From a bacterium (GTDB lineage Bacteria > Sumerlaeota > Sumerlaeia > SLMS01): DNA of 64,000 nucleotides. The stretch covers positions 54,583-118,582 of the forward strand of contig WGMQ01000011.1 in the NCBI GenBank assembly GCA_016125005.1, read 5' to 3'. A program made the translations under genes and the position numbers. Shown here one piece after another: positions 15,291 through 31,285 of the stretch. Each line of letters opens with the position of its first letter. The first letter of the stretch is position 1. The notes beneath the pieces were generated by a model. That model saw only the letters and a list, made by a program, of their open reading frames with translations, was not told the DNA's origin and made no database searches.

Positions 15291-17318
15291 ATGATCGATA
15301 AGAAGCTCCACGGTGACGTCGTCGAACTCACTCTCGACAACCCGCCCGTCAATGCCCTTGGCGTGGAGGTGCGGCGCGCCCTGATGGCTGCCGTCGTATC
15401 GGCGGACGCCGACCCGGATATCAAAGCCATTGTCATTCGCGGAGTGGGCAAGATGTTCTCCGCGGGTGCGGACATCAGCGAGTTCGGCAAGCCTCCCGTT
15501 TCCCCCTGGCTGCCGGACGTGGTGGCAAGGATCGAGACCTGTTCGAAACCCGTGATCGTCGCCATCCACGGGACGGCTCTCGGGGGCGGCCTGGAAGTGG
15601 CTCTTGGCGCGCATCACCGCATCGCAACGCCCGATGCCAAACTCGGCCTTCCCGAAGTGAAGATCGGACTCCTGCCGGGGGCCGGCGGGACCCAACGTCT
15701 CCCGAGACTGACCGGCGTTGAAGCAGCGTTGAATATCATCGTTTCCGGCGATCCGGTTTCGGCCGAAAAGGCTTTGGAACTGGGTCTGATCGACAAGATC
15801 GTCAGCGAAGACGATCTGCTCGAAGAGGCACTGGTTCTTGCACGCACCACGCCCCCCGTCCGACGCGTGAGCGAGCTGAAGGCATGTGCCGACCCGGACG
15901 TCTTTGCGAAGTTTGCCGAACGGAACGCCGGCATCATCGGCAGGCTCGATGCGCCAGGGGCGTGCATCGAAGCAGTCAAGGCCGCGACCGAATTGTCCTT
16001 GGCCGACGGGCAGACCAGGGAGACCGAGTTGCTCGCCAAGCTTGTCGCGGGCACGCAGTCCACCGCTCTGCGCCACGCCTTCTTCGCGGAGCGCGCCGCG
16101 GCCAAGATCAATGATCTGCCGGCGGATACGAAGCCCCGCGCGATCAGGCGAGTCGGCGTGCTCGGCGCGGGCACGATGGGCGGCGGCATCTCGATGAATT
16201 TCCTTTCCGCGGGGATTCCGGTCACCATCGTCGAGACGAAGCAGGATGCACTGGACCGCGGCGTCTCGCTCATGCGCAGGAACTACGAAGCCAGCGCAAC
16301 AAAAGGACGCATCACATCGGCCCAGGTCGAAGGCGCGATGAGCCTGCTGACGCCGACCCTCGACTTCGAGGCTCTCGGCACGTGCGACCTGGTGATCGAG
16401 GCAGTCTACGAAAACATGGACCTGAAAAAGCAGATATTCGCGCGCCTCGACGGGATTGCGAAGCCGGGCGCCATACTCGCCTCGAACACCTCCTATCTGG
16501 ACATCGACGAAATCGCGGCCGTGACATCAAGGCCCGGCGAGGTGGTCGGGATGCATTTCTTCTCGCCCGCGAACGTCATGAAACTGCTCGAAGTGGTGCG
16601 CGGCGCCAAGACAGACCCCGCCGTGCTGCAGACGGCGATGACTGTCGGACGCAAGGTCGGTAAGGTGCCCGTGGTTTCGGGCGTCTGTTACGGCTTCATC
16701 GGCAACCGGATGCTCGAGCCGCGCCAGGCGCAAGCCGACATGCTGCTCCTGGAAGGAGCCCTGCCTCATCAGATCGACAAGGTCCACACCGATCTGGGCA
16801 TGCCGATGGGACCCTATCAGATGTGGGATCTGGCCGGCGTCGACATAGGATGGCATCGCGACCCCAACCGCACCGACACCATCAAGGACGCGCTGTGCGC
16901 ACAGGGGCGATGGGGCCAGAAGACCCAGAAGGGCTACTACGACTACGACGAAAAACGCCGGCGGACTCCCTCGGCCATCACCGAAGAGACCATCAACGCA
17001 TATCGGGCCAAGGCCAACAAGACACCGCGCGAAATCTCCGACGAGGAGATCACCGTTCGTACGCTTTACACCATGGTCAACGAGGCCGCCCTGATCCTCG
17101 AGGAGGGGATCGCACAGCGCGCCTCGGACATCGATGTGGTCTGGCTTTACGGCTATGGCTGGCCCCGCCATCGCGGCGGTCCGATGTTCTGGGCGGACAC
17201 CCTGGGTCTCGACGCCATCGTCTCCGGTCTCGAGCGCTACGCCGATGCGATGGGTCCCGGTTTCAAGTTCTCCGAACTGTTGAGGCAGAAAGCCAGGGCC
17301 AACGAGACGTTCGTCTGA
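15291..17318 (+). CDS. Bifunctional enoyl-CoA hydratase / 3-hydroxyacyl-CoA dehydrogenase (FadB/FadJ-type)
   Basis: N-terminal crotonase domain ([28 protein letters not shown]) and HAD NAD-binding domain ([47 protein letters not shown]). Confidence 0.93.
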
Positions 17319-17460: not shown

Positions 17461-18438
17461 ATGAAGACTAGAATTACTGAGTTGTTCGGAATTGAACATC
17501 CGATCGTACAGGGCGGCATGCATTATGTGGGCTTGGCAGATCTCGCCGCCTCGGTATCGAATGCAGGTGGACTCGGTTTGATTACCGCACTCACCCTGGG
17601 TTCTCCGGAGGCGCTCGCCAAGGAGATCGCCAGGTGCCGGGACATGACCGACAGGCCGTTCGGGGTGAACCTGTCCCTCCTGCCCGCCATCAACGCGGTC
17701 AACTACCCCGCCTACGTCAAGGCGATCATCGACGGCGGCGTCAGGATCGTCGAAACCGCCGGGAACAACCCTGCATCGCTGATGCCCTTGTTCAAGGAAG
17801 CCGGGGTCAAGGTCATCCACAAATGCACGTCCGTGAAACATGCCCTGAAAGCCGAGGCGGTCGGGTGCGACGCGGTCAGCGTCGACGGCTTCGAATGCGG
17901 CGGACATCCTGGCCAGGACGACGTGCCGAACATGATCCTGCTGCCGCGGGCCGCGGAGGAGCTGAAAATCCCGTTCATTGCGTCGGGCGGCATGGCTGAT
18001 GGCCGTTCGCTCGTGGCGGCGCTTGCCCTGGGGGCAGACGGCGTCAACATGGGCACCCGCTTCATGGTGACCAAGGAGGCCAAGGTGCATGACAACGTCA
18101 AAAAGGCGATCCTGGCAGCGACCGAGTTGGATACGCGGCTCATCCTGCGTCCGCTAAGGAACACGGAGCGCGTCCTGAATAACCCGGCGGTCGAGCGTGT
18201 CATTGCCACGGAAAAGAGGCTCGGCGACACCATCACATTCGAGGATGTCCGTGCCGATGTCGCGGGCGTCTACCCGAAGATCATGCTCGAAGGCGATCTG
18301 GATGCCGGCGCGTGGTCCTGCGGCATGGTCGTCGGCCTGATCAACGACATCCCGTCGGTGGCCGAACTGATCAACCGAACCATGGCGCAGGCGGAAGCCA
18401 TCATTACGAAGAGGCTTACCGGAATGCTCACTGCCTAG
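17461..18438 (+). CDS. Nitronate monooxygenase-like (NMO family) flavoprotein
   Basis: TELFGIEHPIVQGGMHYVGLADLAASVSNAGGLGLITA, ECGGHPGQDDV, IASGGMADGRSLVAALALGADGVNMGTRFM. Confidence 0.92.
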   Translation: MKTRITELFGIEHPIVQGGMHYVGLADLAASVSNAGGLGLITALTLGSPEALAKEIARCRDMTDRPFGVNLSLLPAINAVNYPAYVKAIIDGGVRIVETAGNNPASLMPLFKEAGVKVIHKCTSVKHALKAEAVGCDAVSVDGFECGGHPGQDDVPNMILLPRAAEELKIPFIASGGMADGRSLVAALALGADGVNMGTRFMVTKEAKVHDNVKKAILAATELDTRLILRPLRNTERVLNNPAVERVIATEKRLGDTITFEDVRADVAGVYPKIMLEGDLDAGAWSCGMVVGLINDIPSVAELINRTMAQAEAIITKRLTGMLTA

Positions 18439-18587
18439 CCGGGCAACGACGCCGGGCGAGTTCGCCTGTTGACGACGAGTCCCGCCGCTCGGAACCACAT
18501 CCGCCCGCCCGAAACTCCGGAGCGGGTGGGTTTGCTCCTGGCTCCGCCGCGTGTCCCGGCCTGTCGGCGTCCGCAGCTTTCGCCGTG

Positions 18588-19764
18588 TCAGGGCGTGATC
18601 AGATATTTCTCGCCTGTCCGCTTGGCCACATAGGCGGCGATGATCTCGGGATCGAGCGCCTCGGACAGCGAGATTTCGTGGCTGTAGCTGCTGGCAAAGG
18701 TCGAGTGCAGCTCGGCAATCACGCGCGCGCAATCGACGGGCGGCGTCCTCTCCCACGCGCCGGAGAAACGGGAACAGCAACCAGCCGGAAACCGACCAGC
18801 CGAATCCCCATTGTCCCCTGGCCAAGGTCGTGGGGGATGGATCCAGTCCACCATAGATGTAGAGCTGCTTGAACACATCGGAACCATACGTGTTGTAGGT
18901 CGTCATCCGCGACCTTGCCACCGCTTCCATTGCGGCGAGTATCTCTCCCCCCGGCTTGCCACCCGCAACCGCGTCGAAAGCGACGGTGGCGCCTGTCTCA
19001 GCGACGGCATCGATCAACTCGGAGCGGAATTCGGGGTTGTCCGAGTTGAGGACATGCCGGGCGCCCTGGGCCTTGAGCAGCGCCACGTGTTCGTCCTTGC
19101 GGACGATGTTGACCAGCGGAATGCCGTCCGCCATGCAAATGCGATTGAGCATCTGGCCGAGATTGGAAGCCGCCGCTGTATGGACGATGGCCCTGTGGCC
19201 TTCGGTCTTCGCCGTCTCGACGAAGCCGAGCGCGGTCAAGGGATTGATGAAGGCGGAGGCTCCGTCCCGCGGATCGGTGCGGTCCGGCAACGCCAGGCAA
19301 AGGTCTGCCGGCATCACCCGATATTGCGCGAACATGCCATCGCCGATAGCGGCCACGGTCTTGCCCAGCAAGGCCCTCGCCTTGTTCGAGGAACCGGTTC
19401 TGACCACGACGCCGCTGCCTTCGCTGCCGACAGGCATCGGCGTACCCAGACGTCCCGCCAAGGCCCGCAGGACACCTGCGGCGATAGGCGCGGTCAGGAC
19501 CGGCAGCCCGTCACGCTCGGAGCGTTTCGCGGCGGCCAGATCGGCACCGGCGAAGAGCAGGAACTGATCCGTTGGATTGATCGGCGCCGCCGCGACCTTG
19601 ATAAGAACCTCATCATTTCCCGGCGGCGGAATGCGGGTACGGGTCAGGGACAGCTCGAGTTCTCCATCCCTCCTGACGAGCGATGTCAACGAAATAGTCG
19701 TGTCGGGAAAACCGGTCACAGCTCGACTTCCACCATAACGTCGCCCTGGCTCCAAATGCGACAA
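18588..19764 (-). pseudogene. Zinc-binding dehydrogenase (MDR/quinone oxidoreductase-like) with a frameshift near the C-terminus
   Basis: MDR motifs (NPTDQFLLFAGADL, GSEGSGVVVRTG, HTAAASNLGQML); the homologous tail (VIAELHSTFASSYSHEISLSEALDPEIIAAYVAKRTGEKYLITP*) is in the frame ending at 18588, so the reading frame changes at about 18735-18765; the long ORF to 18154 is then out of frame. Confidence 0.7.
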
Positions 19765-19828: not shown

Positions 19829-20005
19829 CCCCAAGTCAATCGGCGTCAAGATCAAACGCTGAGCGAAGCATGGCCAAGGCGATTCCAAACTCAATCGCTT
19901 GAGGTCGACGAAGCATGCGGACGCACTTGGTTCAACTTCACTACAGAGATGTTCGACGCTGGGATGACGGGTCGAGCTAAACAACGGTAACCTTGCAACG
20001 ATTTT

Positions 20006-20017
20006 GTACGATCGTAC
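20006..20017. promoter_or_regulatory. Palindrome GTACGATCGTAC
   Basis: Perfect 12-bp palindrome; same GTACG-N2-CGTAC architecture as at 26962. Confidence 0.45.
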
Positions 20018-20020
20018 CAT

Positions 20021-20032
20021 TAACGATCGTTA
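20021..20032. promoter_or_regulatory. Palindrome TAACGATCGTTA
   Basis: Perfect 12-bp palindrome identical to the core at 22690-22701. Confidence 0.5.
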
Positions 20033-22786: not shown

Positions 22787-23398
22787 ATGGGTCGCCATCG
22801 CGAATTTGACGTTGGGGAAGCACTCGACGCGGCGCTGTGTGTTTTCTGGCGCAAGGGCTATGAGGGTACATCATACACCGACCTGACGGAGGCCGCCGGC
22901 ATAGACAGGCCCGCCTTCTATTCTGCGTTCGGCAACAAGGAATCGCTCTTCCGCAAGGCGCTGGATCGCTACTACGAGCGCTACATGGACTATATTCCGG
23001 ACGCGCTTGAACTTCCGACCGCAAGGGCGGTTGCCGCTCACCTCCTGTACAGCGCGGTCGACCTCAATACGCGATATCCCGACCATACAGGGTGTCTCGC
23101 CCTCCATGGTGCCTTGGCCGGATCGGATGACGCCGAGCCGGTGCGACAAGCGCTAATCGACGCTCGGGCAGTCGGTGAGGCGCAGTTGCGCGAACGTTTC
23201 GAACGCGCCAAGGCTGAGGGCGACCTACCGCAGCGCTCCAGGCCCGAGGTCCTGGCGGCATTCGTGATGGCGGTCCTTCACGGCATGGCCGTTCAGGCCA
23301 AGGCCGGATTCAGTCGGGCGAAGCTCGAGGCTGTTGCAGAACAAGCGCTTTCCGCTTGGCCTGCGAATGACTCGCCAATTGCCAGATCGCCGCCTTGA
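22787..23398 (+). CDS. TetR/AcrR family transcriptional regulator
   Basis: MGRHREFDVGEALDAALCVFWRKGYEGTSYTDLTEAAGIDRPAFYSAFGNKESLFRKAL. Confidence 0.92.
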   Translation: MGRHREFDVGEALDAALCVFWRKGYEGTSYTDLTEAAGIDRPAFYSAFGNKESLFRKALDRYYERYMDYIPDALELPTARAVAAHLLYSAVDLNTRYPDHTGCLALHGALAGSDDAEPVRQALIDARAVGEAQLRERFERAKAEGDLPQRSRPEVLAAFVMAVLHGMAVQAKAGFSRAKLEAVAEQALSAWPANDSPIARSPP

Positions 23399-23757: not shown

Positions 23758-25041
23758 TCAGTCGTGAGCCTGGATCCAGTATCTGCCTTCGACGATTTGC
23801 CGGATATCACGCGCAAACTCGCTGCGTGCTGCAACCAGGTCAGCGGTGCGCGCGCCGGTCGACAGGATGCGGATCGACTTCCCTATGAAAAGCGCCTGAA
23901 GGAGCAGCCCATCGAGCGATCTGTGATGCCTGGACAGCGGTGCAACGAGGCTGTTCCAGGCCTCGCATTGGTCGGCCACAGCGCTCCACACCATCGGCTG
24001 AAGATCCGCCCGCCGCGCCGCTTCGATCCAGATCGTGTAGCTTGCGAGGTTGCGCTTCCCATGCTCGATCACCTCGCGCACGAAGACGACATTGGTCACT
24101 TCGATAATCTGCTCGATGTCGGCGTTCCTGAAGTCGAAGCCGGCCATCGCCGAGCGATAGCGATCCTTGGAACGTTCGAAGAGCTCCGCTTGCGCGATCT
24201 GCAGGATGTCGTCGATACAGGCGAAATAGTATGATGGCGTCGTATTCGAGACGCCGGCCCTTACCGCGATGCTGCGATGGCTCAGCGCGGCCGCGCCATC
24301 GGAAATAAGGATTTGGATCGCTGCGTCGATCAGCGCCCTACGGGTGTGTGCCCCCTTGCTGTCGCCACGCTCTTTCCTGGTCGCTGAACATTCCTTCGTG
24401 CCGCCGCTGGACCACGCCTCGAATGGATTGCTATGCCCCCGCAAAAGCAGGCCGATTTCCTCCGCGTTCAAGTGAAGCCCGATGCACATGAAAAGCAGCC
24501 CGACGACCAGATCGATGCCGGACTGAGCGGTTTCGGGAGCATTCGCGACGTTCAGGGCGAGCGCAATGTCCGTCCAAAGCAACTTGAGCCTGTCATGCCA
24601 TTCCCGGGTGAGACGGAGGCTCTCTTCGTGGCGAACCGCATCAAGCGTGATTTCCCCCCACGAGAGCACGCCATGCCAATGGGGACCAGAGGAGTTCTGC
24701 ACTCTCTCGATTGCAAAATCACGGAAACTGGGTAGCCTGGATTCGCCCGCGCGAATTCTTGTCGCCATTTCGGAAAAGGCTTCCGAGTAATCGTCCAGCA
24801 CCATCGCGGCGGCAGCCGCCACGATGTCGGCCTTGCTGGAAAAATAGTATGTCGTCGCCGACAGCGAGACATTCGCCCGCCGAGCGACAATTCTGTGGCT
24901 GAGGCCAGCGATCCCGGCTTCGGCCAGGATTTCAACCGCAGCTTGGGTGATCTTCAGGCGGGTCTCCCGCGATCGCTGCTGCTTCGGCACGCGTGCGCCG
25001 ACATAGTCTGCACCAAGTGATGAGCTTGAGCTTTCGTCCAC
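23758..25041 (-). CDS. Tandem TetR-like transcriptional regulator (two TetR units in one polypeptide)
   Basis: First HTH: RLKITQAAVEILAEAGIAGLSHRIVARRANVSLSATTYYFSSKADIV; second HTH: RRALIDAAIQILISDGAAALSHRSIAVRAGVSNTTPSYYFACIDDIL from about residue 232; no stop between. Confidence 0.88.
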   Translation of the reverse strand: MDESSSSSLGADYVGARVPKQQRSRETRLKITQAAVEILAEAGIAGLSHRIVARRANVSLSATTYYFSSKADIVAAAAAMVLDDYSEAFSEMATRIRAGESRLPSFRDFAIERVQNSSGPHWHGVLSWGEITLDAVRHEESLRLTREWHDRLKLLWTDIALALNVANAPETAQSGIDLVVGLLFMCIGLHLNAEEIGLLLRGHSNPFEAWSSGGTKECSATRKERGDSKGAHTRRALIDAAIQILISDGAAALSHRSIAVRAGVSNTTPSYYFACIDDILQIAQAELFERSKDRYRSAMAGFDFRNADIEQIIEVTNVVFVREVIEHGKRNLASYTIWIEAARRADLQPMVWSAVADQCEAWNSLVAPLSRHHRSLDGLLLQALFIGKSIRILSTGARTADLVAARSEFARDIRQIVEGRYWIQAHD

Positions 25042-25098: not shown

Positions 25099-26895
25099 TC
25101 AGTAATAGTCAGAGCGCATCGATTCACACGTATCGTCTAGAGCCGCCACCAGCTTCAGCGTGGCATGCACTTGAGGCAGGACATAGCGGAAATGGTAATG
25201 CAGCGCTGCCACTTTCCCGCGATAAAAGGCGATATCCCCCTCATGTACATGGCTTTTCTCCAAAGCTTCTTGCGCCACGATCCCTTGCCATAGCCACAAC
25301 CAGGCGATCACGATGGTTCCAAAGGCGTCCAGATAGAGGGTTGCATTGGCCAGTGCGACATCCCGGTCCCGAGCGTGGATCACGGCGTTCGTCGCACCCT
25401 TCAGCTCTCCAAGCGCATTTTCAAGCGCCTCGACCTCGCTCGACAGCGCCGGCACCCGCTGGGCCTCAGCCAAGGTCGAACCGATTCGGGATATCAGGAG
25501 AGACAGCCCGCGGCCGTCCTCCAGCCGGATCTTACGGCCGAGCAGATCGCGACCCTGGATACCGAAAGTCCCCTCATGGATGTGGTTGAGGCGATTGTCC
25601 CGGTAAAGGCGCTCCACCGGAAAATCCACCGTGTAGCCATAGCCGCCAAGAACCTGGATGGCCCACTTGTTTGCCTCCAGGCAATGTTCCGCCGGCCAGC
25701 TCTTGGCGACCGGCGTCAGGACGCCGAGCAGCAGTTCCAGTTCCTCAACCTCGGTTGGATCCGTCGACAGCCTCAGTTGATCCACGAGCAGTGCGCAAAA
25801 AGTGGTGAGCGCGAGCGCGCCTTCCACCGTCGACTTCTGCATGAGAAGCATGCGTTTGACATCGGCATGCTGGATGATCGGCACCTGAGCCGACGTCGCA
25901 TCCTTGTTGTCGGGCAGGCGCCCCTGCAGACGCTCGCGCGCATAGGACAGGGAATTCAGATAGCCGGCCAATGCCAGCATGACCGCTCCCTGCCCGACAC
26001 CGACGCGCGCTTCGTTCATCATGTGGAACATGTTCGACAGACCCTTGTTCGGCTCGCCGACAAGCTCGCCGATACAATCGCCGCCCTCGCCAAAATTGAG
26101 GAGGCAATTGACCGTCGCTCGCTGGCCCATCTTGTTGTTGAGACCCGCCAGCGCGATGTTGTTCCACTGCCCTGGTCTGCCCTCCGAATCCAGGCGGTAG
26201 CGCGGGACCAGAAACAGCGAAATGCCCTTGACGCCCGCCGGTGCGCCGTCGATGCGCGCCAACACGAGGTGCACGATGTTCTCCGACAACTCGTGATCTC
26301 CGCCGGAGATCCACATCTTGCTCCCGCTGATCCGGTACTGTCCGTCGCCTGTCGGCGTTGCCTTGGTGGTGATGTCTCCGAGCGAAGACCCAGCCTGCGG
26401 TTCCGAAAGGCACATCGTTCCAAACCAGCGCCCTTCAAGCATGGGGGGAAGAAACGCCGACCGCTGGTTTTCCGACCCGAAAACGCTGATCAGATTGGCC
26501 GCCGCGATCGTCAGAAACGCGTAGTTCACCACCGGCAGGTTGGCGGCCATGAAGATACCCATGGCTGACTGCGTGACGACCCAGGGCAGTTGCAGCCCGC
26601 CGTCGGCCTCGCTGAAGCTTGCAGCGAACATGCCGGCTTCGGCAAATTCGGTTAGCGCCGTCTTGATTTCCGGGAGCGTCCGGACCCGCCCGTCAACGAA
26701 GGTCGGCTCCTGGGCATCGGCGATCGCGGCCAGGGGCAGAAAGCGATTCTCGGCCATGGACTCGGCCAGATCAAGGGTGGCGTCGACGATCTCGCGATCG
26801 TGCGCGGCGAATCGCTCATGGGCAAACAGCTGCGCGACATCCAGCAACTCGTGAAGCACGAAGCTGAGATTGCGGCGATCGACGATGAGCGACAT
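25099..26895 (-). CDS. Acyl-CoA dehydrogenase (about 600-aa type with C-terminal extension)
   Basis: MCLSEPQAGSSLGDITTKATP, GSKMWISGGDHELSENIVHLVLARIDG, VLGGYGYTVDFPVERLYRDNRLNHIHEGTFGIQGRDLLGRK. Confidence 0.93.
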   Translation of the reverse strand: MSLIVDRRNLSFVLHELLDVAQLFAHERFAAHDREIVDATLDLAESMAENRFLPLAAIADAQEPTFVDGRVRTLPEIKTALTEFAEAGMFAASFSEADGGLQLPWVVTQSAMGIFMAANLPVVNYAFLTIAAANLISVFGSENQRSAFLPPMLEGRWFGTMCLSEPQAGSSLGDITTKATPTGDGQYRISGSKMWISGGDHELSENIVHLVLARIDGAPAGVKGISLFLVPRYRLDSEGRPGQWNNIALAGLNNKMGQRATVNCLLNFGEGGDCIGELVGEPNKGLSNMFHMMNEARVGVGQGAVMLALAGYLNSLSYARERLQGRLPDNKDATSAQVPIIQHADVKRMLLMQKSTVEGALALTTFCALLVDQLRLSTDPTEVEELELLLGVLTPVAKSWPAEHCLEANKWAIQVLGGYGYTVDFPVERLYRDNRLNHIHEGTFGIQGRDLLGRKIRLEDGRGLSLLISRIGSTLAEAQRVPALSSEVEALENALGELKGATNAVIHARDRDVALANATLYLDAFGTIVIAWLWLWQGIVAQEALEKSHVHEGDIAFYRGKVAALHYHFRYVLPQVHATLKLVAALDDTCESMRSDYY

Positions 26896-26961
26896 GGTTC
26901 AACTCCCAAGATTGGCTATGCCCGCACTAAGCCAGTCGCCGCTGCCTCTCAAGCAATTTTT

Positions 26962-26973
26962 GTACGTTCGTAC
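26962..26973. promoter_or_regulatory. Palindrome-like operator GTACGTTCGTAC
   Basis: GTACG-N2-CGTAC dyad 67 bp upstream of acyl-CoA dehydrogenase start, i.e. promoter of the gene pair ending with the tandem TetR. Confidence 0.5.
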
Positions 26974-27145
26974 TTTTTCTTTCCTTCTCCCTCCCGGTAT
27001 GCATAAAGAAGGGTCAGAGGTGGGGGGTGAGGATGAAGCATTGCGCACATGGAGACGCCTGCGCGCCGCCACCTCAGGACGTGCATCTGACCGACCGGGC
27101 CGGCGGTCCTTTCCCTCGCCAGATCAATCACTGTTGGAGATTTTC

Positions 27146-28321
27146 ATGGACAATATCGTCATTCTTGGCGGCGCACGCACGGCCATCGGCACGTTCGGAG
27201 GCAGTCTGGCTTCGATCAAGCCGTCGCGGCTGGGCGCCATCGCCACGAAGGCAGCCCTTGAACGCAGCGGCGTGTCGCCAAGCCAGGTCGGCCACGTGGT
27301 CTTCGGGCATGTGATCAATACGGAGCCCAAGGACCTGTACCTGAGCCGCATCGCCGCCATGGAGGCGGGAATTTCCGATTCCACGCCGGCGATGAATGTC
27401 AATCGCCTTTGCGGATCCGGCGCTCAGGCCATCGTCTCCGCAGTGCAGTCTCTCACCTTGGGCGACGCGGATTTCGCGGTCGCCGGCGGTGCCGAGAGCA
27501 TGTCGCGCGCACCCCATCTTCTGTCGCAGGCGCGTTGGGGCCAGAGGTTGGGCGAACTTGTTTCGCAGGATATGCTGCTGGGTGCGCTCAACTGTCCGTT
27601 CGACACCGGCCATATGGGGGTCACCGCGGAGAACGTGGCATCCGAATTCGGCGTATCGCGGGCCGACCAGGACGCTTTCGCCCTGGAGAGTCAGGAGCGG
27701 GCAGCAAGAGCCATCAGCGAAGGCCGCTTCGCCGACCAGATCACGCCGGTTGAGATCACGAGCAAGCGCGGACAGATCGTGTTCGTCACCGACGAGCATC
27801 CGAAGAGCACGTCGCTGGAGGCTTTGGCCGGACTGCGCCCGGCATTTCAGAACGACGGGTCTGTCACGGCGGGAAATGCCAGCGGCATCAACGACGGCGC
27901 GGCGGCGATCGTGCTGGCGCGAGCCAGTGCTGCCGAGAAATCGGGGCTCAGGCCGGTGGCGCGCGTACTGGGTTACGCGCATGCGGGCGTACGCCCGGAC
28001 GTCATGGGGATCGGTCCCATTCCAGCCGTGCGCAAGCTCCTCGGCAAGACCGGGCTCTCCGTCTCCGACTTCGATATCATCGAATCCAACGAGGCATTCG
28101 CGTCCCAGGCACTCGCCGTCTCCCGCGAGCTTGGATTCGACCCGGCAAAGGTGAACCCCAATGGCGGCGCCATCGCGCTTGGTCATCCAGTGGGCGCAAC
28201 GGGCGCCATCGTCACCGTCAAGGCACTCTACGAGTTGGTCAGGATCAACGGGCGGCGCGCGCTCATCACCATGTGCATCGGTGGCGGGCAGGGCATCGCC
28301 ATCGCGATCGAAAGGATCTAG
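27146..28321 (+). CDS. Thiolase (acetyl-CoA C-acyltransferase family)
   Basis: MNVNRLCGSGAQAIVSAVQSL, GGAESMSRAPHL, NPNGGAIALGHPVGATGAI, MCIGGGQGIA; start MDNIVILGGARTAIG. Confidence 0.95.
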   Translation: MDNIVILGGARTAIGTFGGSLASIKPSRLGAIATKAALERSGVSPSQVGHVVFGHVINTEPKDLYLSRIAAMEAGISDSTPAMNVNRLCGSGAQAIVSAVQSLTLGDADFAVAGGAESMSRAPHLLSQARWGQRLGELVSQDMLLGALNCPFDTGHMGVTAENVASEFGVSRADQDAFALESQERAARAISEGRFADQITPVEITSKRGQIVFVTDEHPKSTSLEALAGLRPAFQNDGSVTAGNASGINDGAAAIVLARASAAEKSGLRPVARVLGYAHAGVRPDVMGIGPIPAVRKLLGKTGLSVSDFDIIESNEAFASQALAVSRELGFDPAKVNPNGGAIALGHPVGATGAIVTVKALYELVRINGRRALITMCIGGGQGIAIAIERI

Positions 28322-28714: not shown

Positions 28715-29806
28715 TCAGGCCGGTCGGGGTAGTGCCTTGCCGGCCTGCCCAAAGCTCTCGCCATATTCCACCCGATTTGCCTTGCCGGTGACCGCTTCGC
28801 GAGCGCGTTCTGCAAATCTGCGCGCAAGAAGCCCGACCTGCGCTGCGTTCTCGGAGGACGCATTGCCGGACCTGGCCCTGTCGGCAATGCCGTAAAAGAT
28901 CACCGAAAAGCGGAACAACGCGAACACGACATGGAACCTCTGCAGAGCAGATGTCGGTATCGCGCTGCGGAAGTACCGCGCCACATAGTGGGCCTCGTCC
29001 GGAATGCCCAGTGCGGCCTGGTCCAGCCCCCGGATTCCCCCGTACTCTTCGGGCCTGCTGTGCCAGGGAATGCAACTGAATGCGAGGTCGGCCAGGGGAT
29101 GTCCGAGTGTGGCCAGCTCCCAGTCCAGAATGCCGATAACCTCCGGACGGTCGGGATGGTACATCATGTTTCCGATACGGAAGTCGCCATGGGCAATTGA
29201 CACCCGTTCATCATCGGCGGGCAGATTGCGGGTCAGCCAGTCGATGACCTCGTCGAGAGCTGGGATGTCATCGCTTTCCGAGTCCCGGTATTGACCTGAC
29301 CAGCGCCTGATCTGGCGCTCGAAGTAATTCCCCGGTTTGCCGAAATCGCCCAGACCGACCTTTGCGGGATCAACAGAGTGCAGCTTCGCCATTGCATCGG
29401 CGAGACCATAATAGATGCCGGCGCGTTGCGACCGATCCAGCTCGGGCAAGGAGCAGTCGGCGAAGACACGCCCCTCGAGCCGTTCCATCAAATAGAAGGG
29501 CGTACCGAGAACGGCACTGTCCTCACACAGGACCAGCGCATGCGGAACCGGCACGTCGGTCGCCTGAAGGGCCCTCATGACGCGGAATTCGCGTTCGACC
29601 GAATGGGCGCCGGGGAGAATTTGGCCAACCGGCTTCTTGCGCAAGACCATCCGCTCGGACCCGAAATTGACGAAGTAGGTCGGGTTTGACTGACCGCCTC
29701 CGATCCGGGCGACATCCATAACCGCCGATTGCGTGCCAAGGAACTCGCGAAGAAAGCCCCGCAGGCTCTCGATCCGGAAACCGATCCGTGAAGAGGCGCT
29801 ACTCAT
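28715..29806 (-). CDS. Aminoglycoside phosphotransferase-like (APH family) protein of the acyl-CoA dehydrogenase-associated type
   Basis: SIAHGDFRIGNMMYHPDRPEVIGILDWELATLGHPLADLAF; translationally coupled (ATGA) to the acyl-CoA dehydrogenase. Confidence 0.92.
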   Translation of the reverse strand: MSSASSRIGFRIESLRGFLREFLGTQSAVMDVARIGGGQSNPTYFVNFGSERMVLRKKPVGQILPGAHSVEREFRVMRALQATDVPVPHALVLCEDSAVLGTPFYLMERLEGRVFADCSLPELDRSQRAGIYYGLADAMAKLHSVDPAKVGLGDFGKPGNYFERQIRRWSGQYRDSESDDIPALDEVIDWLTRNLPADDERVSIAHGDFRIGNMMYHPDRPEVIGILDWELATLGHPLADLAFSCIPWHSRPEEYGGIRGLDQAALGIPDEAHYVARYFRSAIPTSALQRFHVVFALFRFSVIFYGIADRARSGNASSENAAQVGLLARRFAERAREAVTGKANRVEYGESFGQAGKALPRPA

Positions 29807-31008
29807 TTTCCGACTGACCAGGACCAGAAATCACGGCCTTCTTTTCCCAGTGCGCGGCTCAGCACCATTTTGTGCACTTCGTCCGCACCGTCGACCAACC
29901 GAGCCTGACGGGCATAGCGGTATATCCATTCGAGAACCGTGTCCTTTGAGTAGCCCCGGGCACCGTTGATCTGGATAGCGGTGTCAGCCGCCTTATGCAG
30001 AACGTTGGCCACATGGATTTTCGCCATGGACACTTCCTTGCGGGCGAATCCACCCTGGTCGAGTTCCCATGCAGCGCGCATCACCAGGAGCCGTCCGATC
30101 TCGATCTGGTGGGCGAGTTCACCCAGCATCATCTGCACACTCTCCCGGTCGGCGAGACGCACACCGAAGCCATATCGACGACCGGCATATTCCAGAGCGA
30201 TCTCGACGCTGCGTTTGGCAAGTCCAAGCCAGCGCATGCAGTGGGTGAGACGCGCCGGCCCGAGGCGGATCTGGGTGGCCTTGAGCCCTTGCCCCTCGCC
30301 AAGCAGGACGTTTTCTTCGGGAACCTCGAGGCCATCGAAAACGAGTTCACAATGCCCGCCGTGCTCTTCGGGTCCCATGATGCCGATACGGCGTTCAATC
30401 GACCAGCCGGGTTGATCGCCGTCGTAGAGGAAAGCCGTCAGCCCATGGCGGGGATCATCGGAGGTACGCGCCATGACAATGAATTTTTGTGCGGCCGCGG
30501 CGCCGGAGATGAACCACTTGCGCCCGGAAATGACGTACTTGCCTCCTTTCTTGATCGCCGTGGTGGCGATCATGGAAGGATCGGACCCGCCGCCGGGCTG
30601 CGGCTCGGTCATGGCAAAAGCCGAGCGCTGCTTGCCCTCCACAACCGGTTTCAGCCACCATTCCTTTTGGGCATCTGTACCAGCCGCCTCCAGAAGCATC
30701 ATGTTGCCGTCATCAGGCGGAGCCGAATTGAAGACTGCCGGGCCGAAGATGGACCTGTTCATCTCCTCGTAGCAAGCGGCCATGCCGACACGGCCGAAAC
30801 CCTGCCCGCCCGTGTCAGGCTTCAGCTGCAAACACCAGAGACCCGCTGATCGAGCCTTGGCCCGCAGTTCATCCAGCAATTCAGGACGAATGTTCTCATA
30901 TGGATCGTAGGCACCAGCATCGGCTTCCAGGGGCAGCACTTCCTTGGCAACAAATGCAGCTATCCGCGCTCGGAAGTCTTCTATGCGGGGAGAGACAGTG
31001 AAATCCAT
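29803..31008 (-). CDS. Acyl-CoA dehydrogenase
   Basis: AMTEPQPGGGSDPSMIATTAIKKGGKYVISGRKWFISGAAAAQ, INGARGYSKDTVLEWIYRYARQARLVDGADEVHKMVL; start MDFTVSPRIEDF at 31008. Confidence 0.92.
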   Translation of the reverse strand: MDFTVSPRIEDFRARIAAFVAKEVLPLEADAGAYDPYENIRPELLDELRAKARSAGLWCLQLKPDTGGQGFGRVGMAACYEEMNRSIFGPAVFNSAPPDDGNMMLLEAAGTDAQKEWWLKPVVEGKQRSAFAMTEPQPGGGSDPSMIATTAIKKGGKYVISGRKWFISGAAAAQKFIVMARTSDDPRHGLTAFLYDGDQPGWSIERRIGIMGPEEHGGHCELVFDGLEVPEENVLLGEGQGLKATQIRLGPARLTHCMRWLGLAKRSVEIALEYAGRRYGFGVRLADRESVQMMLGELAHQIEIGRLLVMRAAWELDQGGFARKEVSMAKIHVANVLHKAADTAIQINGARGYSKDTVLEWIYRYARQARLVDGADEVHKMVLSRALGKEGRDFWSWSVGK

Positions 31009-31016
31009 GCGACCTC

Positions 31017-31285
31017 CTACGGTGATGAGACACGATGGCCGCCGTCGACGACCACATCGGATCCGGTCATGTAACTGCTCGCGTCCGAACAAAGCGGTAG
31101 CGGTGGAGCCTCGATCGACTGCGCCTGACCCAAACGCGCTGCGGGATGCGGCTGCGCGTTTTCCCGATGTCGTTTGAGAAAAACTCGCGGTTGATGCCCG
31201 TTTCGACATTCTCTGGGCAAAGCGCATTCACAAGGTGCCCCTCGGCCTGAGGAGCGACCGGCACTCTGCCCCCTTTGAACAACCT
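31017..31285 (-). pseudogene. 3'-terminal remnant of an SDR gene, frameshifted
   Basis: Frame A: GHLVNALCPENVETGINREFFSNDIGKTRSRIPQRV; frame B: SDASSYMTGSDVVVDGGHRVSSP*; N-terminal two thirds absent. Confidence 0.7.

Follow-up and report, generated by a model that had tools for sequence, protein, structure and literature searches.

A tandem TetR gene beside an acyl-CoA dehydrogenase gene: a probable single-chain pseudo-dimeric repressor with a candidate asymmetric operator

Introduction

Regulators of the TetR/AcrR family typically, though not by strict definition, have subunits of about 200 aa that act as homodimers. Mce3R, from Mycobacterium tuberculosis, is described as unusual in its double TFR motif. 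In its cryo-EM complex a four-helix bundle forms within the chain and two non-identical HTHs sit on a non-palindromic site of 25–27 bp; according to its authors, no structure of a duplicated TFR had been solved before (PMC11667970). Engineered single-chain Tet repressors (sc-TetR, sc-rtTA) also fold intramolecularly (PMC1797012). In our literature search, made mostly outside subscription papers, we found no natural double TetR other than Mce3R, which was likewise the only one with a solved structure, and no report of an alphaproteobacterial double-TetR family. The “double TetR” of PMC6561031 refers to TetR-YFP foci, not to a double-unit protein.

We examined a 64,000-nt stretch of contig WGMQ01000011.1 (the window), from a genome bin assigned to Sumerlaeota, in which one gene had been predicted from the letters alone to encode two complete TetR units in a single chain.

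One frame, two TetR units

The gene and its parts map as follows.

23758..25041, minus strand: tandem TetR regulator, 427 aa (open reading frame list; Pfam TetR_N x2 and TetR_C_31 x2; six full-length relatives)
24811..24951, minus strand: first HTH, unit M1, residues 31–77 (Pfam; genome scan)
24202..24333, minus strand: second HTH, unit M2, residues about 237–280 (genome scan, at 78784–78915 of the contig)
24355..24423, minus strand: inter-unit linker, residues about 207–229 (pLDDT, alignments)

The frame runs from a GTG start at 25041 to a stop codon at 23758–23760. Pfam finds TetR_N twice (E=5.7e-14 for the whole protein, the best stretch being residues 31–77) and TetR_C_31 twice, the latter amounting to two all-helical C-terminal domains, so the prediction of two complete units in one 427-aa chain holds. 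A scan of the bin’s genome placed both TetR_N matches, each above the curated cut-off, within one 432-codon open frame, the only one of the bin’s 10 TetR frames with two HTHs. With its HTHs above cut-off and its helical C-terminal domains the protein is a member of the TetR/AcrR family, from whose typical build of ~200-aa homodimeric subunits a two-unit chain of 427 aa departs.

M1 and M2 share 36% identity over 88 aa (E=1e-10), and compared as profiles they match with 97.4% probability over 113 columns; the likeness fades past the HTH and the first helices of the ligand domain. Nearby, 22787–23398 on the plus strand encodes an ordinary TetR of one unit, with a TetR_C_13 domain, which the tree described below places well apart from the tandem protein.

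Relatives and origin of the fusion

With the tandem protein as query, nothing close was found in genome contigs, plasmids or 40 genomes of the bin’s phylum; three plasmid matches (H1–H3) that seemed to span the linker proved to be single-unit TetRs. Relatives were reached instead through the neighbouring acyl-CoA dehydrogenase, which as query returned 80 loci, all titled Proteobacteria except one MAG labelled Flavobacteriaceae, whose flanks were then searched in six frames for TetR_N. Four tandem TetRs were found there, each adjoining the dehydrogenase on the same strand: in a Hoeflea MAG (L020), a Hyphomicrobiales MAG (L021), a Rhodobacteraceae MAG (L025) and Gemmobacter nectariphilus DSM 15620 (L080). 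Whole-genome searches added two more, one lying about 7 kb away from the dehydrogenase of Sphingobium chungbukense (L190) and one in a genome from the class of Gemmobacter (L189). The six are 32–36% identical to the window protein over its full length and come from alphaproteobacteria where named. In the first five members 80 positions are invariant, spread across both HTHs and both helical domains; the linker, whose length varies among the natural tandem TetRs, has no invariant residue in that alignment. The family is rare: when 385 genomes were drawn evenly from the class of Gemmobacter, members at E<=1e-30 came from just two of them, the centre genome and that of L189.

By tetranucleotide usage the contig carrying the window groups with one other, C105 (0.81–0.83); its agreement with most of the rest, and with the contig bearing rps12, is lower (0.49–0.66). 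It also bears all four of the bin’s dehydrogenase matches. For the window dehydrogenase the bin’s own class offers nothing close over the full length (38%), against up to 62% in Proteobacteria. The contig is probably alphaproteobacterial and was placed in the wrong bin.

We built a tree of 56 TetR units, following a five-member version; all seven M1 units group together in it, as do all seven M2 units, and both clades have 100/99 support. Because each half is its own fully supported clade, the fusion is, going by the tree, old, a single event earlier than the divergence of these lineages. M1 and M2 belong on this tree to one TetR subgroup, with single-unit TetRs from Actinobacteria interspersed between them; forcing M1 and M2 to be sisters costs 7–15 log units (p-AU 0.17 and 0.26). 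The original prediction had read the two halves as a duplication followed by fusion. The fusion stands, with one frame in all seven members; internal duplication is neither shown nor rejected at these p-AU values.

Acyl-CoA gene neighbourhood

The tandem gene lies 57 bp downstream of the dehydrogenase stop (25099), as had been noted, and the two genes are probably one operon. The genes most relevant to its role are these.

25099..26895, minus strand: acyl-CoA dehydrogenase, 598 aa, upstream partner of the tandem TetR (Pfam)
27146..28321, plus strand: BktB-type beta-ketothiolase, divergent from the dehydrogenase (NCBIfam PRK09051, E=7.8e-196, over cut-off)
15291..17318, plus strand: FadB/FadJ-like enoyl-CoA hydratase / 3-hydroxyacyl-CoA dehydrogenase

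The locus also carries an enoyl-reductase-like protein and another acyl-CoA dehydrogenase. At 28715–31227 (minus strand) an APH-family kinase-like gene follows a second acyl-CoA dehydrogenase gene, with stop and start overlapping; these two are likely a two-gene unit.

Linkage of the tandem TetR to the dehydrogenase recurs in L020, L021, L025 and L080. In L189 a homologue of the FadB/FadJ-like protein (44%) adjoins the tandem TetR, and the tandem TetR, FadB-like, dehydrogenase and thiolase genes stand together on one strand. The link to acyl-CoA chemistry, first suggested by a single neighbouring gene, is thus borne out by a conserved neighbourhood: the tandem gene adjoins this dehydrogenase, lies close to it, or belongs to a beta-oxidation operon.

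A candidate operator

By eye, and then with a matrix, we recognised a shared sequence, AAAnnGTACAnnYGTnCAAA, upstream of the dehydrogenase in the tandem TetR loci, with a second site between the tandem gene and an SDR gene in three of them. The matrix was built from seven sites of other loci, several of them from near relatives (L020 and L025), with the window left out. It gives two outstanding matches in the window, where the best of 40 shuffled windows reached 16.6.

26954..26979, minus strand: candidate operator O1, GAAAAAGTACGAACGTACAAAAATTG (matrix score 23.1; leave-one-out; genome pattern)
19998..20023, minus strand: candidate operator O2, TTAATGGTACGATCGTACAAAATCGT (matrix score 25.0; genome pattern)

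O1 lies about 60 bp upstream of the dehydrogenase ATG, within the divergent interval shared with the thiolase, and no promoter or terminator was recognised near it. O2 is just 3' of an SDR gene and precedes, by about 230 bp, a quinone oxidoreductase-like gene (18154–19764, minus strand), which is itself frameshifted near its C-terminus, its usual ending being in another frame.

Matrices made with one locus left out at a time rank the known sites first in every locus, the window included. Upstream of the dehydrogenase the site scores 25.9–35.7 in 4/4 tandem loci, whereas among the 76 loci without an adjacent tandem TetR one scores 20.6 and the other 75 at most 12.1. The association of strong site with tandem gene (4/4 vs 1/76; Fisher p=3e-6) is partly circular because the same four loci define the matrix, and the window is the clean test. 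In each of four relatives’ genomes, sites without mismatch are confined to the tandem locus, and across the bin’s 4.69 Mb the two window sites are the sole exact occurrences of the 15-base core pattern. L189 and L190, the most distant members, have weak sites nearby (17.3 and 17.5, respectively; shuffles reach 20.1). The sequence is likely the operator read by the tandem TetR.

Its core, GTAC-N4-GT(A/C)C, is palindromic; its flanks are asymmetric, with AAA-n-n on the left and AAA directly on the right. Mirrored flank positions are complementary in 0/9 sites (−3/14) and in 1/9 (−1/12). Relative to the next gene every site has the same orientation, and it is this orientation that carries the highest information among 256 flips (26.34 bits, with the next-best flip close at 25.35). 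An asymmetric, oriented site is what two different reading heads would need, and the earlier suggestion that a covalent tandem might read asymmetric sites finds its counterpart in this conserved candidate operator.

Both window sites (26959–26973 and 20003–20017) have G after the first GTAC, where the relatives have A. In the recognition helix of M2 (residues about 265–270) the window protein has NTTP, and L020, L021, L025 and L080 have RSGP or RSAP. This co-variation (G/A with NTTP/RSGP or RSAP) might hint that the left half of the site is the one read by M2.

Structure models

AlphaFold2 models, which rest on a five-sequence alignment, were made for the window protein (pLDDT 81.3, pTM 0.81) and for that of L020 (87.5, 0.87). 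Both show the two halves packed together in one chain; the weak point of the window model is the inter-unit linker, where pLDDT falls below 50 at residues 213–228. A Foldseek search of the PDB put Mce3R (9b7y_A) first for both models (E=2.2e-6 and 4.2e-7, over 412 and 417 columns), and among the matches listed it alone spans both units, the others covering one. The superposition of these five-sequence models on Mce3R is loose (TM 0.46–0.53, rmsd 11–13 Å), so the order of units agrees with Mce3R and the relative orientation of the halves differs. That the protein is a pseudo-dimer, as first proposed, is probable given the packing of the single-chain models and Mce3R as their sole full-length fold match, with the loose superposition counting against it.

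Proposed regulation and its alternatives

Our main reading, to which we give a probability of about 0.6, is that the protein represses a small acyl-CoA locus as a single-chain TetR pseudo-dimer, so that a switch normally made of two molecules may work here as one. We infer intramolecular pairing: the two non-identical units of one polypeptide would fold together as two subunits normally would, and a single molecule would meet one asymmetric operator, AAAnnGTACAnnYGTnCAAA, with two recognition helices that differ. From O1 it would repress its own operon of acyl-CoA dehydrogenase and tandem TetR; a second promoter would probably be repressed from O2, and control from O1 could extend to the divergent thiolase. 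The ligand releasing the repressor, bound between or within the helical domains, would be an acyl-CoA or related beta-oxidation intermediate, a natural guess from the genes around it.

The units might instead pair between chains, M1 with M1' and M2 with M2'; the resulting dimer would have four heads, would read two palindromic sites such as O1 and O2, and might loop the DNA. The palindromic core could be read by an ordinary homodimer too, two sites stand 3–7 kb apart in 4/5 well-matched loci, and Mce3R itself dimerises further, through the helix after its second HTH (PMC11667970). We nonetheless consider this arrangement unlikely: the flanks are asymmetric and the orientation of the sites constant, the single-chain models pack both units at pTM 0.81–0.87, and L080 has only one good site.

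Another possibility, which we hold to be distinctly improbable, is that the conserved site belongs to another factor or to a promoter, and that the tandem TetR binds elsewhere. The A-tracts of the flanks could be promoter features, and a Rhodobacter MAG has a site-like sequence (L082:4923–4948, the score of 20.6 above) upstream of its dehydrogenase gene; the stretch examined there contains no tandem TetR. Yet the tandem TetR is the regulator common to the loci with a strong site, and exact sites are found nowhere else in those relatives’ genomes. GTAC half sites at such spacing also fit TetR operators, which counts against another factor.

It is very unlikely that one unit no longer binds DNA and is left with a ligand or dimerisation role alone. 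The second HTH does score lower in the Pfam genome scan (25.1 bits vs 36.1 for the first), and the recognition helix of M2 is the more variable (NTTP vs RSGP); but both HTHs pass the curated cut-off, they are equal (69.0 and 70.4 bits) under a profile trained on these and neighbouring TetRs, and M2 retains Y and F at the end of its recognition helix in 7/7 members.

An assembly artefact, in which a missed stop or frameshift joined two tetR genes encoding the halves separately, might be suspected from the frameshifted gene nearby on the contig (18154–19764), but is refuted by the six other genomes, which keep both units collinear on one continuous frame each.

Comparison with known systems

The best single-unit matches by sequence and fold are EbrR/EbrA (3hta), SCO1917 (3iuv), PA3699 (3kkd) and SCO7518 (2dg8), ordinary TetRs of ~200 aa whose sequence matches fall on M1. 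The engineered sc-TetR and sc-rtTA share with the window protein two TetR domains on one chain; they are artificial, with a designed flexible linker, whereas here the chain is natural, with diverged halves and a linker of variable length.

The closest described system is Mce3R (Rv1963c, 9b7y). Likenesses are a single chain of ~400 aa with two TetR units and non-identical HTHs, lipid or acyl-CoA gene targets and asymmetric sites (both predicted here), and likely autoregulation. The two differ in operator sequence, in the relative orientation of the halves in our models, and in setting, an mce transport operon there and a local beta-oxidation locus in alphaproteobacteria here. Sequence does not support orthology with Mce3R, which ranks 28th and 53rd among PDB sequence matches and matches through its first HTH alone. 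Since sequence points to no special kinship between them, this looks like a separate fusion; either the same architecture was reached independently or the split is too old to see. By sequence comparison the tandem TetRs are a new family of known architecture, with a specific predicted operator.

A bolder proposal, which we offer tentatively and regard as somewhat doubtful, is that a single-chain TetR switch evolved separately and naturally in alphaproteobacteria, with two diverged heads on an asymmetric, orientation-specific operator and two non-equivalent pockets possibly sensing different intermediates of one beta-oxidation pathway. The short, well-defined predicted operator and culturable, non-pathogenic hosts (Gemmobacter nectariphilus DSM 15620 and Sphingobium chungbukense) make a clean test system, in which one could study how fusion lets two heads and two pockets diverge, and the protein is a possible part for asymmetric operators in synthetic circuits. 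Set beside Mce3R, a second and apparently separate family would mean that TetR switches of the pseudo-dimer kind have evolved more than once.
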